DNA of 20,897 nt from a virus, in the IMG/VR virus record IMGVR_UViG_3300047370_000267, positions 1 through 20,897 of that record; one strand, written 5' to 3'. Made by a program: the position numbers and the translations under genes. The notes under the pieces were generated by a model. That model saw only the letters and a program-made list of their open reading frames with translations, was not told the origin of the DNA and did no database searches. Of this stretch, positions 10,892 to 20,870 are shown one piece after another; the stretch's first letter is position 1, and every line of letters begins with the position of its first letter.

Positions 10892-12808
10892 TTAGGCGCC
10901 AAGCTCTTCAAATGAAATGCCTGTGCGGGTTGCAACAAATGTCAGTGTAATAAAGTTAATAGAGCGGGCAGGCTTAATGAAAATGTCTGCTCTAAACTCA
11001 TTAGCATCTACTACCTGAGCTGTGTTATTTGTTTCGTCACATACGACACGGAAGTCATAAATGCCTCTACGACCTTGAACATCACGCAGGAATGGCTCAA
11101 CCAAACTACGGAATTGTGCTCTTGTAAACGCATCGTTAAATTCAAACAGTTGGAATTTAGCTGCCGTTGCAATTGCTTTTTCAAGAGTGATAAACAATCT
11201 ACGAACGTTAATACGGTTAAATGCACTTTCTTTATCGAGGTGTGTTTTATCACCAAACAATACAAAGCCGCTACCTTGGAAACCAACGATTGGGTTTGCA
11301 CCGCCTCTATAAAGTGTATCGCGATCTGCTTTCTTAGGATTAAATGCAAGTTTTACTGCATTTTTAATTTGTCCTCTGTTAAAGCCAGCAGGTGAGAACC
11401 AAGGATCTGCTTCTAAATCAGCAGTTACACATGTTCCTGCTGTATCGCCATTACATGGAATCCAACGATACTTATCATTGTATTTGTCATACATGTATTT
11501 CCAACCTGTATCAAATACGGCATATGAAGAACGTGTGTAGGATGACTGTGTGCCTTGAATTGATGTGACCTCAGAACCAGAGTTGTTTACAACGTTTGCT
11601 TTTGTAGGTGAAATGAATACCATACAATCCTTACGAACATCCGTAATATTGTCAATGATATAATCACCAACAGTTGCACTATGAGCACCAGCAAGAAGCA
11701 AGTTTACATCGACTTCTTCATCATTAGCAAACAAGTCATAACCTGCTTGTTTGTCACCATCTGCAGGTGAACCATCGACACCATTTATTAATGAAACATT
11801 AATATCATTAGAACCTGGATTGAGATCATCAAAGGTTACACCGGAAGCCTCGCTACCCCAGTTTGCACCATCACCTAGATGGTCCATCCAATAAATCCAT
11901 TGGGACTGGTTGTTAATTACGTTTTTATAGAAGTTACTTTCGTTTTGGTCATTTTTAGCATCAGACGCTTTTGACAAGCCTGCAAATTTTTCCAGAACTG
12001 TGCCTGCTGTGCCTGTAATTTTACCATCTTCGTCAACAACAATAATATGCAATTCATCACGCGATCCACCTTGGTTTGCGGCATATGTTGTTGTAGTAGG
12101 AACATAGTCAAAATTATTTTTGTATGTCCAGTTTGTTGTAAGTGCGGCAGTTGCAGTTGCGCCTGTGCCGCCACCTCCAGAAATTGTTACTGTAGGAGCT
12201 GAAGCGTAGCCAGCACCATGATAAGAAATAGTAATTGCATTAACTGACGCACCTGATAATGTTGCAGTTGCAATTGCAGTTTCTGTGCCTACGTCTGGCG
12301 CGGCGACCGTAACTGTTGGTGCGGATGAGTATCCTGAACCACCAGCTGTAACCGTGATAGAAGCAACCGATGTATTACCAAAAGATGTAATATCGGCAAC
12401 ACCTACTGCAAGTGAATTACCTAAAGTGCCTGGGTATTTTGCGGCCCATGGTCCAACACTAGCCTCACCGGCTTCGTAAGATGCTTCATATGAATCTCTG
12501 TTTTTAATTAAAACAGCCGTTCCTGATTGCACTGCATTTCTAGCGGATGAGCCTACTTCACGAACAACCTTAAGGGCTGAACCGTAAGCAAGAAAGCTAG
12601 CTGCCGTCAGAAAATCTGTAGAAGTTGTATCTGTAGGCTTACCAAAGCGGTTAACTAGGTTATTCTCGCTATCAATGGTAATAATTTCTCGGGCAGGACC
12701 CCAACTAAAATCACCAACAAAACCGCCAATGGTTGTGCCAACCGCTGGGACTACATTGGTAGCATCTTGTTCCTGAACGAGAACGCCTGGGGAAAGCTGA
12801 AAAGCCAT
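10892..12808 (-). CDS. 18: Tail sheath protein gp18
   Basis: 638 residues, close to T4 gp18 (659). gp18 forms the contractile sheath. The N-terminus MAFQLSPGVLVQEQDATNVV (1-20) and following VPAVGTTIGGFVGDFSWGPA are typical, as is the C-terminal domain with FNRGQIKNAVKLAFNPKKAD, NRINVRRLFITLEKAI, FLRDVQGRRGIYDFRVVCDE and IFIKPARSINFITLTFVATR, which makes the conserved sheath core. Residues 148-221 hold two Gly-rich repeats (GGSGYSSAPTVTV and GAGYASAPTVTIS) inserted in an outer domain. The start has GAGGAG upstream, and an exact late promoter lies 51 bases before it. The gene is intact. Confidence 0.96.
   Translation of the reverse strand: MAFQLSPGVLVQEQDATNVVPAVGTTIGGFVGDFSWGPAREIITIDSENNLVNRFGKPTDTTSTDFLTAASFLAYGSALKVVREVGSSARNAVQSGTAVLIKNRDSYEASYEAGEASVGPWAAKYPGTLGNSLAVGVADITSFGNTSVASITVTAGGSGYSSAPTVTVAAPDVGTETAIATATLSGASVNAITISYHGAGYASAPTVTISGGGGTGATATAALTTNWTYKNNFDYVPTTTTYAANQGGSRDELHIIVVDEDGKITGTAGTVLEKFAGLSKASDAKNDQNESNFYKNVINNQSQWIYWMDHLGDGANWGSEASGVTFDDLNPGSNDINVSLINGVDGSPADGDKQAGYDLFANDEEVDVNLLLAGAHSATVGDYIIDNITDVRKDCMVFISPTKANVVNNSGSEVTSIQGTQSSYTRSSYAVFDTGWKYMYDKYNDKYRWIPCNGDTAGTCVTADLEADPWFSPAGFNRGQIKNAVKLAFNPKKADRDTLYRGGANPIVGFQGSGFVLFGDKTHLDKESAFNRINVRRLFITLEKAIATAAKFQLFEFNDAFTRAQFRSLVEPFLRDVQGRRGIYDFRVVCDETNNTAQVVDANEFRADIFIKPARSINFITLTFVATRTGISFEELGA
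12145..12367 (-). repeat. Gly-rich 'GGxGYxSAPTVT' repeat pair inserted in gp18
   Basis: gp18 residues 148-221 contain AGGSGYSSAPTVTVAAPD and GAGYASAPTVTISGGGGTG, separated by a 'TATLSGASVNAITISYH' linker. The same unit occurs in gp15. Codons differ between copies, so they are conserved at the protein level and are not a fresh duplication. Confidence 0.75.
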
Positions 12809-14505: not shown

Positions 14506-14929
14506 TTTCAATCGTCTTCTGTTCGTCATTTATTGCTTTTAACAAATCAGAAGTGCTTCCATTAAATACAATGTTTGTTTGTTTTTCAATCTTACTGGCG
14601 ACTTTACCATCAATTTTATCAATTTTTTGTTTGCGCTCCTGCACATCCATAACATCCTTTGCTTGGTCGCTCATAGTTTTTATTAATTGTCCGGCGACCT
14701 CAAATGCACGAGGATTATCTGAGTTTTGTGCTATTTGCAAAATGCCCTGAATTGCTTCTTCACCATATACCATTGCCCTTTTCAAGGCATTTCTAGCTTC
14801 CTGGAAATCATTTTCAAGTTGTTCATCCTGTTGATCTACAGGAATCATAGGAGTTTTTGTTTCCTCAACTTGTGTTAAGGTTCCAAACGTTTTATCCAAC
14901 GCATCAAATACTTTATTCTTTTTATTCAT
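14480..14929 (-). CDS. 16: Small terminase subunit gp16
   Basis: 149 residues from ATG 14929 (MNKKNKVFDALDKTFGTLTQ), against 164 in T4. gp16 recognises DNA and regulates gp17. The protein is almost all helical, with DFQEARNALKRAMVYGEEAI (about 41-60) and an oligomerisation-type helix PRAFEVAGQLIKTMSDQAKD followed by VMDVQERKQKIDKI, the conserved core of T4-like gp16. A longer frame opens at 15001, but those 24 residues only read through the coding end of gene 15. ATG 14929 has GAGGAG upstream and overlaps the gene 15 stop by 8 bases, so it is the likelier start. It overlaps gene 17 at its 3' end, the usual terminase pair. Confidence 0.92.
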   Translation of the reverse strand: MNKKNKVFDALDKTFGTLTQVEETKTPMIPVDQQDEQLENDFQEARNALKRAMVYGEEAIQGILQIAQNSDNPRAFEVAGQLIKTMSDQAKDVMDVQERKQKIDKIDGKVASKIEKQTNIVFNGSTSDLLKAINDEQKTIENVPTDRKD

Positions 14930-15941
14930 AAACTGTATCAAACTCCTCGAGGAATCTATACGCATCATCAATTGATTGTATTCCTGAGTCCGGTGCCTCA
15001 AATGTTACAGTGGGTGCAGATGAATAACCACTACCACCGGCATCTATTGTAACACTCTTGACTCTAAACTTACTACTATTTAGAGGATCTGCTTCCATAG
15101 TTACAGAAGCCCTTGCACCTGTTCCATCACCTGTTATAGTAATATTAGGACCTGCTGATGTATAATTACCGCCACTATATGTAACAGCTATAGCACTTAC
15201 CGCATTACCTGAAAGTGTTGCAGTACCTGTTGCTGTAGCAGATGATACTGAATATTGTTGCCGTGTTCTTTCACCCGTAAGATTAGGATTTTGATAAACG
15301 TCTGCAATAACTTTTCTTATGATTCCTTGATCTGCAACATGACCATAAAAGTTTAGTTTCATAGTAAAGTTAAGAGACCATATAATACTTTGTCTATCTG
15401 CAAACTGACCATATGTATTATCTTCATATGCAGTTGATTCCAACGTAATTTTAATGTCTCTTTTAATACCTAGTTCAGGCAAATCATTTACTGTAATGTT
15501 GAAGTCAGGATTAAAAAAAGGTAAAATCTGTTCTATGATTTGCAAACCATCTTCCTGATTCTTAGCAAAACAATATAAAGTAAGATTCAAATCATAAGGT
15601 GTAGACACAAATGTTTGTGTCATTTTAAGAGCATCAGATGTGTTTGTTTTACGATGTTGCTGAATAGGTGCAACTTTTCTTGTAGGATCATATGTAAGAG
15701 AGCTAATCTCAAATCCCATGCGAGGCAAAACTAATGCAACTTCTTGGTCAGTTAAATTCGGTTGTCCCTCAATACGGGATAAAAACTTTTGCTTCGTAGC
15801 ATACGCAAGAGGCACTCTAAGTGATTGAGCAACGTTACCACTAGAATCTTTACGTTGTATAACAATGTTGTTAAATATAGAACCAAATGCCGCAACAGCT
15901 CTGCGGACATGAGAGTGATAAAAAGTTTTTCCCTTAAACAT
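14922..15941 (-). CDS. 15: Tail sheath terminator/stabiliser gp15
   Basis: 339 residues, longer than T4 gp15 (272). gp15 caps the top of sheath and tube and joins the tail to the neck. The N-terminus MFKGKTFYHSHVRRAVAAFG (1-20) SIFNNIVIQR, the VPLAYATKQKFLSRI block (43-57), PRMGFEISSLTYDPTRKVAP (73-92) and the FNITVNDLPELGIKRDIKIT segment are the T4-like gp15 core. The extra length comes from residues 236-318, two Gly-rich repeats inserted before the last 20 residues, which return to the helical tail IDDAYRFLEEFDTVYE. The start overlaps the gene 14 stop (TAATG). Confidence 0.93.
   Translation of the reverse strand: MFKGKTFYHSHVRRAVAAFGSIFNNIVIQRKDSSGNVAQSLRVPLAYATKQKFLSRIEGQPNLTDQEVALVLPRMGFEISSLTYDPTRKVAPIQQHRKTNTSDALKMTQTFVSTPYDLNLTLYCFAKNQEDGLQIIEQILPFFNPDFNITVNDLPELGIKRDIKITLESTAYEDNTYGQFADRQSIIWSLNFTMKLNFYGHVADQGIIRKVIADVYQNPNLTGERTRQQYSVSSATATGTATLSGNAVSAIAVTYSGGNYTSAGPNITITGDGTGARASVTMEADPLNSSKFRVKSVTIDAGGSGYSSAPTVTFEAPDSGIQSIDDAYRFLEEFDTVYE
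14988..15236 (-). repeat. Gly-rich repeat pair inserted near the gp15 C-terminus
   Basis: gp15 residues 236-318 hold a degenerate unit (TYSGGNYTSAGPNITITGDG) and a clean unit (AGGSGYSSAPTVTFEAPDSG). The clean unit is almost the same as one in gp18 (AGGSGYSSAPTVTVAAPDVG), though codon choice differs. Confidence 0.75.
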
Positions 15942-18041: not shown

Positions 18042-18725
18042 ATGATTACAATACACACATTACTTTATGGCGACAAATATACATATGATGATGTAAATCG
18101 TATTGCCGCATCGGTTCCTAACATGGATTGCCGCTTTGTTTGTCACACAGATCAAGGTGAGAAACTTCGCAAGGATGGTCTTTACGAGGATATCATTCTA
18201 AGATGGGCTGATATTGAATTAGGCACATTTGAAAAAGTAAACATTCTTGGTCAAGATTGGGGTCATTCAATATATCTTGATTTAGATGTTGTGATACAAA
18301 AACAAGATTTGTCAGATTTTATAACAATTCACGGTAATGCTATATGTAAAACTTATTGGAAGCCTGAAGGCTTTGAAGCTGAACATAAAGGCGGTGACTT
18401 CAACTCCAGTGTCATGTCATGGAGAGGTATTAGTGGACTGCCTATCAAAAAACACTTCAATAAAAATCCTTACAAGTGGATAAAAGAATATGACGGGTGT
18501 GACGATAAATATCTTTTTCACGAACACAAGGATAAGTTTCACCCATATGAGAAAGGTAAAATTTATTCCTATATGTTTGGCATAGACCACGAAACAGATG
18601 TAAGTCCTCGTGGCAGAAAATATAGATCTAAACCCGATATTTGTTTATTGAATGGTCAGGATCGCTTTAACTTTGATTTGAGGACTGATTACTATACTCA
18701 CTTTTCTAACAATAAAGTGGGGTGA
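18042..18725 (+). CDS. Glycosyltransferase-like protein 1 (GT-A type, DLD motif)
   Basis: 227 residues. The N-terminus MITIHTLLYGDKYTYDDVNR (1-20) and HTDQGEKL look like the nucleotide-binding half of a GT-A fold. IYLDLDVVIQ (77-86) supplies the D-x-D motif (Asp80, Asp82) that binds metal and sugar nucleotide. Further shared points are YWKPEG (105-110) and FNSSVMSW (120-127). The family is seen in marine phages and in bacterial polysaccharide loci, but the donor and acceptor are not visible. No Shine-Dalgarno is clear before the ATG. The gene starts the plus-strand cluster, divergent from all structural genes. Its last 38 or so bases overlap the conserved beginning of the next gene in another frame. 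Confidence 0.78.
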   Translation: MITIHTLLYGDKYTYDDVNRIAASVPNMDCRFVCHTDQGEKLRKDGLYEDIILRWADIELGTFEKVNILGQDWGHSIYLDLDVVIQKQDLSDFITIHGNAICKTYWKPEGFEAEHKGGDFNSSVMSWRGISGLPIKKHFNKNPYKWIKEYDGCDDKYLFHEHKDKFHPYEKGKIYSYMFGIDHETDVSPRGRKYRSKPDICLLNGQDRFNFDLRTDYYTHFSNNKVG

Positions 18726-18762
18726 CAAATACTCCGCTGATTATGTAAACAATCTGTATGGA

Positions 18763-20079
18763 ATGATTGATGCTAATTATGTCAATCAGTTTCGTATGGT
18801 TTGCTTTACTGACGAACCTGACAATATCCGAGAAGAAGTAGAAATACATCCTATTCCGGATATAGAACCTTTGCATCCTAAATATTGGTTTGGTAAGGAA
18901 AACTACTGTTGGGATCGCAGTAAGTTTCTTCTGTTCAACGCACATAAACTATTATCTACTGAAGGGCCTTTTTGTTATTTTGATCTTGACATTGTAATAC
19001 AGGATAGTATAGATGAATTTTACGAACTTGCCTTTCAACCTCACATTTTGTATTCCCATTGGCAGCCTGAAGGACAACTAAAAGAAAGACGTTTTCGAGA
19101 TGTCAGAGGAACATATTACAATTCTAGTTGTATGTTGTGGTGGTCAGATCAACCTCAAAAAATATATGAGGATGTTGTAAACAATCCTAATATTTTTAAA
19201 GTATTTTACAAAGGCTCAGATAATTACCATCAGTGGCGGCGTCCTGCAGGAAAAGACTTCTGGAACTTTTTGCCGTGCGATTGGTATTATAGTTACAATT
19301 ATGAGGATGCAAACTACAAAGCCAAACTAGCTTTATTCAATCAGAATATGATTGAAGGTGAAGACACTGTAAGTTTAGATAAATGTGAAGATGCCTCCAT
19401 ACTTAATCATTGGTATGGTAAATATGACATGTATAAAGAACTACCGACAAGAGTAGTTCTAGAACTTACAAACAAATTCAATGATACAGATAATAAATTT
19501 AATAACATTTTTGTAGAAGAGGATGAACTAACTCTTGCAGATATAAAACGTATATTCAAAAATTATAAACTAGAATATGTTACTCTGCTTAGAACACTCT
19601 CAGCACCTTGGAGATGTAAGGATTATTTTGAAATTATAGAATGGTTTGGTGAACAGGGTGCTCAAGTAATCATGCCCATATTAGAAATAGATGACGAGCC
19701 TCAAACTACTGAAGTTCAAGAATCTATACGAGATATTGTAAGTAGAGAAAATATTTACGACTTCAAACAAACATATGAATATCGCAATATTGACAAGGAA
19801 GAAAAATGGATTATTGATTGTGAGGCAAGAAATGATAATAGCATATATGTAAATGCAAAAGGTCAAGTTTTTCCTTGTTCATATATTGCTAGAGACGTAT
19901 TAGAAAATAGATTGTATCCTTTGCATCCAATTGACTATCCTTATAACAATAAATACAATAACGCCAAGTCTTTCGCTGTGAAAGACATTGTTTATAATGA
20001 CGACTTCGAGCATTATAATGAAAGTCTCAAACGAGACCATTTGAAAATTTGTAAAGAGAAGTGTGGAAGATGCGTGTAA
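18763..20079 (+). CDS. Glycosyltransferase-like domain fused to a degenerate radical-SAM/SPASM domain
   Basis: 438 residues from the first ATG. Residues 1-225 are GT-like: HPKYWFGKENYCWDRSKF (38-55), YFDLDIVIQ (72-80) with the DLD motif, YYNSSCMLWW (118-127) and YKGSDNYHQW (149-158). Residues about 228-438 resemble a radical-SAM/SPASM protein: PTRVVLELTNKFN (228-240) is where 'ELTNKCN' is expected, but the CX3CX2C positions are Phe239, Asp243 and Phe246. The SPASM-like part keeps IIDC (Cys353), YVNAKGQVFPC (Cys372) and CKEKCGRC (Cys430, 434, 437). The frame stays open 27 codons upstream, and those codons encode family-like KWGDKYSADYVNNLYG, so the true start is probably a rare codon near 18688-18694 (AGGA at 18681-18684). 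Function unknown; radical-SAM chemistry is unlikely. Confidence 0.8.
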   Translation: MIDANYVNQFRMVCFTDEPDNIREEVEIHPIPDIEPLHPKYWFGKENYCWDRSKFLLFNAHKLLSTEGPFCYFDLDIVIQDSIDEFYELAFQPHILYSHWQPEGQLKERRFRDVRGTYYNSSCMLWWSDQPQKIYEDVVNNPNIFKVFYKGSDNYHQWRRPAGKDFWNFLPCDWYYSYNYEDANYKAKLALFNQNMIEGEDTVSLDKCEDASILNHWYGKYDMYKELPTRVVLELTNKFNDTDNKFNNIFVEEDELTLADIKRIFKNYKLEYVTLLRTLSAPWRCKDYFEIIEWFGEQGAQVIMPILEIDDEPQTTEVQESIRDIVSRENIYDFKQTYEYRNIDKEEKWIIDCEARNDNSIYVNAKGQVFPCSYIARDVLENRLYPLHPIDYPYNNKYNNAKSFAVKDIVYNDDFEHYNESLKRDHLKICKEKCGRCV

Positions 20080-20870
20080 ATTTTGTATGTGCTAAATGGG
20101 GCACCAAATATGGACCACACTTTGTCAATCGGTTATGTAATATGGCTAGGAGAAACTGCCCTGACCATTTTGATTTCCACTTCTATTGTTACACTGATGA
20201 TAGTGTTGGTCTTCAATCTGATATTACGGTTATCCCCTTTCCAGATATTCCGAACATCCATCCTAAGTATTGGTTCGGGAATGATAATTTTAAATACGGA
20301 ATGGCTCGCTGTTGGGATCGCCCAAAAACTTTTGTTTTTAACACCCATAATTTCGCCGATGACAAACCTACTGGTCGGTTCGTCTTTCTAGATTTAGATG
20401 TCATCATTCAGAACGACCTAACTCCTATCATTACATATAATATGGAACAACCTACTAAGATGCGTTCTTGGTGGCAGGATCCACGCCCTATGGATACTCG
20501 CCGCTTTAAAGTTTCACATGGGGCGTTTACAAATGGAAGCTGTCAAGTATGGAGCGATGACCAATGTGAACCTATCTGGGAAGATGTATTAGAGCATCAG
20601 GATAAAATTTGGTTCACATATACAGATGGCACTGATAATTACCACAGTTGGAGATGGCGTGAGCTATGGGATTACTTTCCGAGCTGGATGGCATATTCTT
20701 ATAATCGCGGCCGCTCATGGGATGAGGATGATTTAAATGTAGGAATATATCGTGGGAACTGCATTCTATGTGTATTCAATGTTGACTTGTTGCCCTTTGA
20801 AGATGCATCAAGAGGAAAAACAAAACAGGATGAATTAGCAGACCCCAAGTTGTTGGAACATTGGCAGTGA
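20070..20870 (+). CDS. Glycosyltransferase-like protein 3 (GT-A type, DLD motif)
   Basis: 266 residues from ATG 20070 (MRVNFVCAKWGTKYGPHFVN). A GTG at 20061 would add three residues, but ATG 20070 fits the family start better and has AAGAGAAG upstream. Shared with the preceding protein: KWGTKY and FVNRLCNM near the N-terminus, HPKYWFG (64-70), CWDRPKTFVFNTHN (81-94), FLDLDVIIQ (106-114), NGSCQVWSDDQ (155-165), YTDGTDNYHSW (184-194) and WMAYSYNRG. It lacks the C-terminal SPASM-like half. The start overlaps the previous stop by 10 bases, and the stop overlaps a GTG that may begin the next gene. It is clearly a paralogue of its neighbour's GT half. Substrate unknown. Confidence 0.8.
   Translation: MRVNFVCAKWGTKYGPHFVNRLCNMARRNCPDHFDFHFYCYTDDSVGLQSDITVIPFPDIPNIHPKYWFGNDNFKYGMARCWDRPKTFVFNTHNFADDKPTGRFVFLDLDVIIQNDLTPIITYNMEQPTKMRSWWQDPRPMDTRRFKVSHGAFTNGSCQVWSDDQCEPIWEDVLEHQDKIWFTYTDGTDNYHSWRWRELWDYFPSWMAYSYNRGRSWDEDDLNVGIYRGNCILCVFNVDLLPFEDASRGKTKQDELADPKLLEHWQ

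Follow-up and report, generated by a model that had tools for sequence, protein, structure and literature searches.

A radical-SAM-derived pseudoenzyme module as the predicted C-terminal arm of a glycosyltransferase in marine T4-like phages

Why would a phage glycosyltransferase carry a C-terminal half laid out like a radical-SAM/SPASM protein, yet lacking the cysteines that bind the SAM cluster? The question is raised by a gene in a 20,897-nucleotide stretch of viral DNA (IMG/VR record IMGVR_UViG_3300047370_000267, hereafter the window). The original prediction read this gene as a catalytically dead radical-SAM barrel, kept for its SPASM clusters or as a scaffold and joined to a glycosyltransferase. 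Its account of the sequence and its residue numbering, counted from the ATG at 18763 so that residue 228 corresponds to nucleotide 19444, are correct: F239, D243 and F246 lie in LELTNKFNDTDNKF, IDC-EARNDNSIYVNAKGQVFPC is part of the C-terminal half, which terminates in CKEKCGRCV, and both IDCEARNDNSIYVNAKGQVFPC and CKEKCGRC are found, with the cysteines C353, C372, C430, C434 and C437. The features discussed below are located in Table 1.

Table 1. Positions in the window of the fusion gene, its domains and sites, and its neighbours
Feature	Position	Strand	Basis or remark
Glycosyltransferase and pseudo-radical-SAM/Twitch fusion gene	18685..20079	+	probable CTG start at 18685
GT-A-type glycosyltransferase domain (predicted), DxD-like F-D-L-D and H-W-x-G-K	18706..19443	+	phrog_1962, motifs, tblastn
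Radical-SAM barrel remnant (beta1-alpha1-beta2-alpha2-beta3) without CX3CX2C cysteines	19444..19683	+	hhalign, predicted structure
Site of lost SAM-cluster motif, F239-N-D-T-D243-N-K-F246	19477..19500	+	column counts
Twitch/SPASM-like C-terminal domain	19765..20076	+	Pfam SPASM, hhalign, purifying selection
C353-x13-G-x4-C372, first cysteine pair of Twitch/SPASM signature	19819..19878	+	column counts
C430-x3-C434-x2-C437, closing cysteines	20050..20073	+	column counts
Upstream glycosyltransferase paralogue, same cassette, overlaps fusion gene start	18042..18725	+	ORF, synteny
Downstream glycosyltransferase paralogue, same cassette	20070..20870	+	synteny

The virus is a marine, T4-like phage whose capsid protein is nearest to that of Pelagibacter phage HTVC008M (67.8% identical), and the fusion gene belongs to a glycosyltransferase cassette that is conserved among pelagimyophage-like viruses. 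One and the same glycosyltransferase gene lies directly downstream of it in 59 of 61 distinct loci. L011 and L051 lack this usual neighbour and have in its place a gene that begins with 'TFGCSFT' and looks SGNH-hydrolase-like by eye. Elsewhere in the window, repeat-like GGSGYSSAPTVT segments occur in two structural proteins, one tail-sheath-like and one baseplate-like (10892-12808 and 14922-15941), with additional copies in L010. Glycosyltransferases of the same phage group are known from the host-recognition cluster of pelagimyophages: according to a pelagimyophage survey, this hypervariable cluster contains radical-SAM cassettes as well as glycosyltransferases, the latter mostly GT8 (PMC7029224). 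In the survey's account of the cluster the two appear as separate genes, unlike here, and neither a fusion nor a loss of cysteines is mentioned (PMC7029224).

The mechanical ORF caller places the start of the gene at ATG 18763 (ORF 18763-20079), and the conserved N-terminal motif I-K-W-G-x-K-Y falls upstream of this position in the family alignment; a standard caller removes the corresponding KWGDKY from the fusion protein. The codon aligned with 18685 is CTG in most members, ATG in L021, TTG in L048 and L050, and ACG in L009 and L024. From this alignment, a non-AUG start at CTG 18685-18687 is probable. The candidate start overlaps the end of the upstream gene, falling among its last 14 codons.

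The N-terminal domain is a predicted GT-A-type glycosyltransferase. Its glycosyltransferase motifs contain an invariant D-L-D (DxD), and D93, D95, N234, H235, W236, G238 and K239 are all invariant in the family alignment. The glycosyltransferase profile phrog_1962 matches 12 of 16 full-length members weakly (best E 6e-5) and tblastn matches phage glycosyltransferases; a Pfam search gave no match for this domain.

Viral contigs were scanned, with a profile as guide in the later rounds, and the family grew from near-identical copies to 62 distinct domain sequences whose identity falls to about 33-36%. The proteins that contain them measure about 465, 735, 840 and 916 aa. The long forms (735-916 aa) have the same architecture, and the fusion of a radical-SAM-derived domain to a glycosyltransferase, as originally predicted, is conserved family-wide. 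In three long forms (L028, L230, L242), about 240-430 residues separate the glycosyltransferase from the pseudo-radical-SAM module, and a weak DUF6557 match directly precedes the latter. No relative turned up when 84,980 bacterial and archaeal genomes were scanned, in a pattern-limited way, for peptides conserved in the family, so it looks phage-borne. No intermediate form, in which the glycosyltransferase would be joined to a radical-SAM barrel that is still intact, occurred among the motif-scan matches listed.

Intact radical-SAM proteins are also encoded by related phages. There are 8-9 radical-SAM matches on contigs G001 and G002, and intact proteins of 400-530 aa occur in tandem on G001, G002, G003 and G005 (L079, L082, L085-L087), several of them with a SPASM/Twitch-like match before the barrel. 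One long intact radical-SAM/SPASM protein stood among the motif-scan matches listed (positions 1462-3192 of L278; contig G015; 576 aa); its C-terminal part resembles a short-chain dehydrogenase, and its phage also carries the pseudo form.

Does the C-terminal half really descend from a radical-SAM protein? Searches with single sequences gave little: phrog_21308, a 'radical SAM domain-containing protein', matched the window protein at E 0.003, tblastn with the domain alone against annotated phages returned nothing at E<=1, and a sequence search of the PDB gave no radical-SAM match. We then compared profiles. A family profile made without any radical-SAM protein, searched against every ORF of the loci collected, recovered the intact proteins L149, L193, L141, L114, L182, L209 and L210 with whole-sequence E-values from 8e-11 (L149) to 3e-8, and these are colinear with the family apart from one large deletion. 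Against 12 intact phage radical-SAM/SPASM proteins, hhalign gave a domain-wide probability of 98.6% (E 5e-15; 97.7% at default settings), with 93.5% (E 2.4e-7) for the first 80 residues alone and 95.6% (E 1.3e-8) for the C-terminal part alone, while 16 column-shuffled controls reached at most 0.9%. Because this intact set came from a motif scan and was then picked by the family's own profile, the hhalign E-values are optimistic; the two halves and the shuffles still support the relationship. Common ancestry with the radical SAM superfamily (PF04055) is thus found by profile, with each half above 93%, and the ancestry proposed for residues 228-438 stands with clean controls.

Two control sets of radical-SAM proteins from the same phages, the B12-type and the N-terminal-Twitch types, did not match the family in hhalign, so its closest relatives are specifically SPASM proteins of the L149 type (phrog_21308), the closest intact homologues that we found. 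They share with the family the ELTNKCN start, the E[LI]TLxxxKxIF helix, C-x13-G-x4-PC and the closing C-x3-C. They differ in having intact CX3CX2C, GNxGDP, TNG and S-x-DG motifs, and those examined carry no glycosyltransferase domain. On the strength of these alignments, descent from a phage radical-SAM/SPASM protein followed by loss of catalysis is very probable.

The loss of the SAM-cluster cysteines extends well beyond the window. In column counts, none of the 54-55 sequences covering the site has a cysteine at any of the three positions; the CX3CX2C loop of PF04055 is absent from all of these, and the loss is older than the spread of the family. At position 1 of the lost motif the residue is Q, R, H, S, Y, F or T, and an invariant N follows; G, D, N, K and E occur at position 5, and position 8 is always F or Y. 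F-x3-D-x2-F, first proposed as the specific replacement, was accordingly rejected as a signature, being the variant that the window's own lineage shows at a varied site. The claim that the replacements keep the exact CX3CX2C spacing survives for position 1, which the alignment fixes by K-x-N against K-C-N in intact proteins, but not as firmly for positions 5 and 8, which match the spacing only without a gap, where HHalign inserts one. We also looked for homologues whose cysteines align elsewhere in the protein, and the earlier reading was not refuted. A working radical-SAM enzyme that uses other residues or a partner's cluster might be suspected, since the closing C-x3-C-x2-C happens to match radical-SAM spacing. 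The intact relatives, however, have a CX3CX2C on the N-terminal side in addition to their closing cysteines, and it is with the latter that this triplet aligns. With the TNG and S-x-DG strands of the SAM pocket deleted as well, such an enzyme is very improbable.

The barrel itself was not retained whole, contrary to what had been supposed. The first motif position and the first SPASM cysteine are separated by 114-136 residues in the family versus 215-258 in intact relatives, a shortening of about 80-140 residues that removes about half of the barrel. According to the profile alignments, the deleted stretch includes the TNG and S-x-DG strands, and the GNxGDP of intact proteins persists as xTLxxP, which extends to the whole family the earlier remark that the Gly-rich and TNG segments look lost. 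None of the SAM-pocket motifs of PF04055 (GGE-like, TNG, S-x-DG) appears in the alignments, and the spacing, the deleted strands and a model with three strands only speak against its partial (beta/alpha)6 barrel.

Structure prediction, which had been suggested as a check, was informative in part. With a mean pLDDT of 57, the domain model reaches good confidence only over beta1-alpha1-beta2-alpha2-beta3 (pLDDT about 70-94) and is poor past residue about 77, and the model of the full-length protein is unusable (pLDDT 38). Fold searches with the domain model gave no match at E <= 0.001. Ranked by E-value, the PDB entry closest to the half-barrel model is SpeY (probability 0.89), a Twitch radical-SAM enzyme; SuiB (0.72) and BlsE (0.66) are also among its PDB neighbours. 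Phage radical-SAM proteins (0.97, 0.95, 0.91, 0.90) make up many of the viral matches of highest probability. With both the cysteines lost and the barrel shortened, radical chemistry is very probably excluded, on two counts.

The C-terminal cysteines, in contrast to those of the SAM cluster, are kept, in agreement with the original prediction. C353 and C372 are present in all 62 sequences (with the G between them in 46), and C430, C434 and C437 in all 57 that extend that far; the closing C-x3-C is common to the family and to intact phage relatives such as L149. Pfam SPASM matches the window protein weakly (E 0.001; 15.5-19.7 bits against a gathering cut-off of 21.5), as it does all nine members tested (best E 1e-4), and reaches 21.6-22.0 bits in several relatives on related phage contigs. 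TIGR04085 gave E 0.34 with the window protein as single sequence. SPASM domains are defined by CX9-15GX4C-gap-CX2CX5CX3C-gap-C and hold two clusters, whereas Twitch domains hold one (PMC6231123). Only five conserved cysteines are found here instead of the seven of the two-cluster SPASM domain (PF13186/TIGR04085), and C-x13-G-x4-C followed by C-x3-C agrees with the Twitch pattern of C-x9-15-G-x4-C and a later Cys pair. With four ligands and one spare in C-x13-G-x4-C then C-x3-C-x2-C, the domain is Twitch-like, and in place of the plural SPASM clusters first proposed there are cysteines enough for one.

Judging from this conservation, the Twitch cysteines are likely to retain one metal site, most likely Fe-S. 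A zinc-ribbon-like structural domain, with zinc bound by the five cysteines and a purely historical radical-SAM origin, would fit their arrangement in two knuckle-like groups beside a decayed barrel, and cysteine conservation alone looks the same for Zn and Fe-S. Because the C-x13-G-x4-C signature is unchanged from cluster-binding relatives, with a spacing common to the intact phage homologues, we consider zinc unlikely. Twitch radical-SAM enzymes (BtrN, MoaA, SkfB, SpeY, BlsE) show the same order of barrel then Twitch, and their C-x9-15-G-x4-C with a later Cys pair is enough for one auxiliary cluster (PMC6231123). They differ in possessing CX3CX2C, a partial (beta/alpha)6 barrel and SAM binding, whereas the phage module, joined to a glycosyltransferase, has no CX3CX2C cysteines and retains about half the barrel.

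Selection was estimated between the window and nine full-length relatives, with synonymous sites near saturation in most regions. The C-terminal domain has dN of 0.03-0.13 against eight of them (dN/dS 0.04-0.10 where computable) and 0.29 against the ninth and most distant, L035, where synonymous sites are saturated. The half-barrel has dN of 0.14-0.37, and the linker in place of the deleted strands changes fastest (dN 0.7-1.9). The remnant is, by this measure, functional, with constraint strongest near the cysteines. As dozens of related phages have the same fusion, the remnant has apparently been kept for a new, non-radical job. The lost catalytic residues and the large deletion could also be expected of a decaying pseudogene or an assembly artefact, but 62 distinct sequences from many metagenomes, an open frame, and the preservation of synteny and strong purifying selection render this extremely improbable.

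What could the new job be? One candidate is a redox relay or sensor, in which the Twitch cluster feeds electrons to phage radical-SAM enzymes or redox-gates the glycosyltransferase. Every Twitch ligand is invariant, as many as 8-9 intact radical-SAM proteins are encoded in the genomes of related phages, and electron transfer between radical-SAM enzymes through auxiliary clusters has a precedent in PapB, which activates QueE as long as it has either the RS cluster or AC2 (PMC10470005). The site described here, however, is most like AuxI/Twitch, whereas in PapB it is the distal AC2 that is implicated, and no intact radical-SAM gene adjoins the fusion gene in the examined loci, where the neighbours are glycosyltransferases and methyltransferases. 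We therefore find a redox relay or sensor quite unlikely.

We favor, as reasonably likely, a radical-SAM pseudoenzyme module that serves as the C-terminal arm of a phage glycosyltransferase, with one metal site and a docking or structural function. As the sequences show, a phage radical-SAM/SPASM ancestor lost its three SAM-cluster cysteines and about 80-140 barrel residues, including the SAM-pocket segments, while the Twitch-type cysteine set was kept and the module was long maintained in the glycosyltransferase cassette. The resulting arm would be unable to bind SAM via an iron-sulfur cluster and would perform no radical chemistry. C353, C372, C430, C434 and possibly C437 would hold one metal site that rigidifies the C-terminal fold, and this fold may dock either a partner enzyme from the cassette or an acceptor, which might be a carrier-linked sugar, a surface protein or a phage protein; a docked acceptor would be glycosylated by the N-terminal domain. 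Docking or scaffolding may be the role of the module, and we propose it with some reserve. The idea of a dead radical-SAM protein kept for its clusters or as a scaffold thus holds in that the catalytic site is lost family-wide, but not for a whole barrel or for more than one cluster. More tentatively still, the family as a whole may represent a marine-phage pseudoenzyme in which a truncated barrel and a one-cluster Twitch domain form a metal-holding arm for docking or redox control of the glycosyltransferase.

We found no described pseudo-radical-SAM protein with a SPASM domain in the open literature, which does not prove its absence. For a SPASM protein whose radical-SAM part is atypical, the grasp-with-spasm SPASM maturases are a possible precedent; they differ as bacterial peptide maturases without a glycosyltransferase. 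A paper on graspetides treats the SPASM enzymes that it describes as radical-SAM enzymes. The phage module is best classified as a radical-SAM-derived pseudoenzyme module and not as a radical-SAM enzyme. It also represents a fusion within the surface-sugar cassettes of phages akin to those that infect SAR11. The role of auxiliary clusters in radical-SAM enzymes is hard to assign because the catalytic cluster adjoins them. In a natural, widespread protein with half a barrel and no catalytic cluster but with all the cysteines of the auxiliary site, that site could be studied alone, and the family would show that such a site is useful without radical chemistry.
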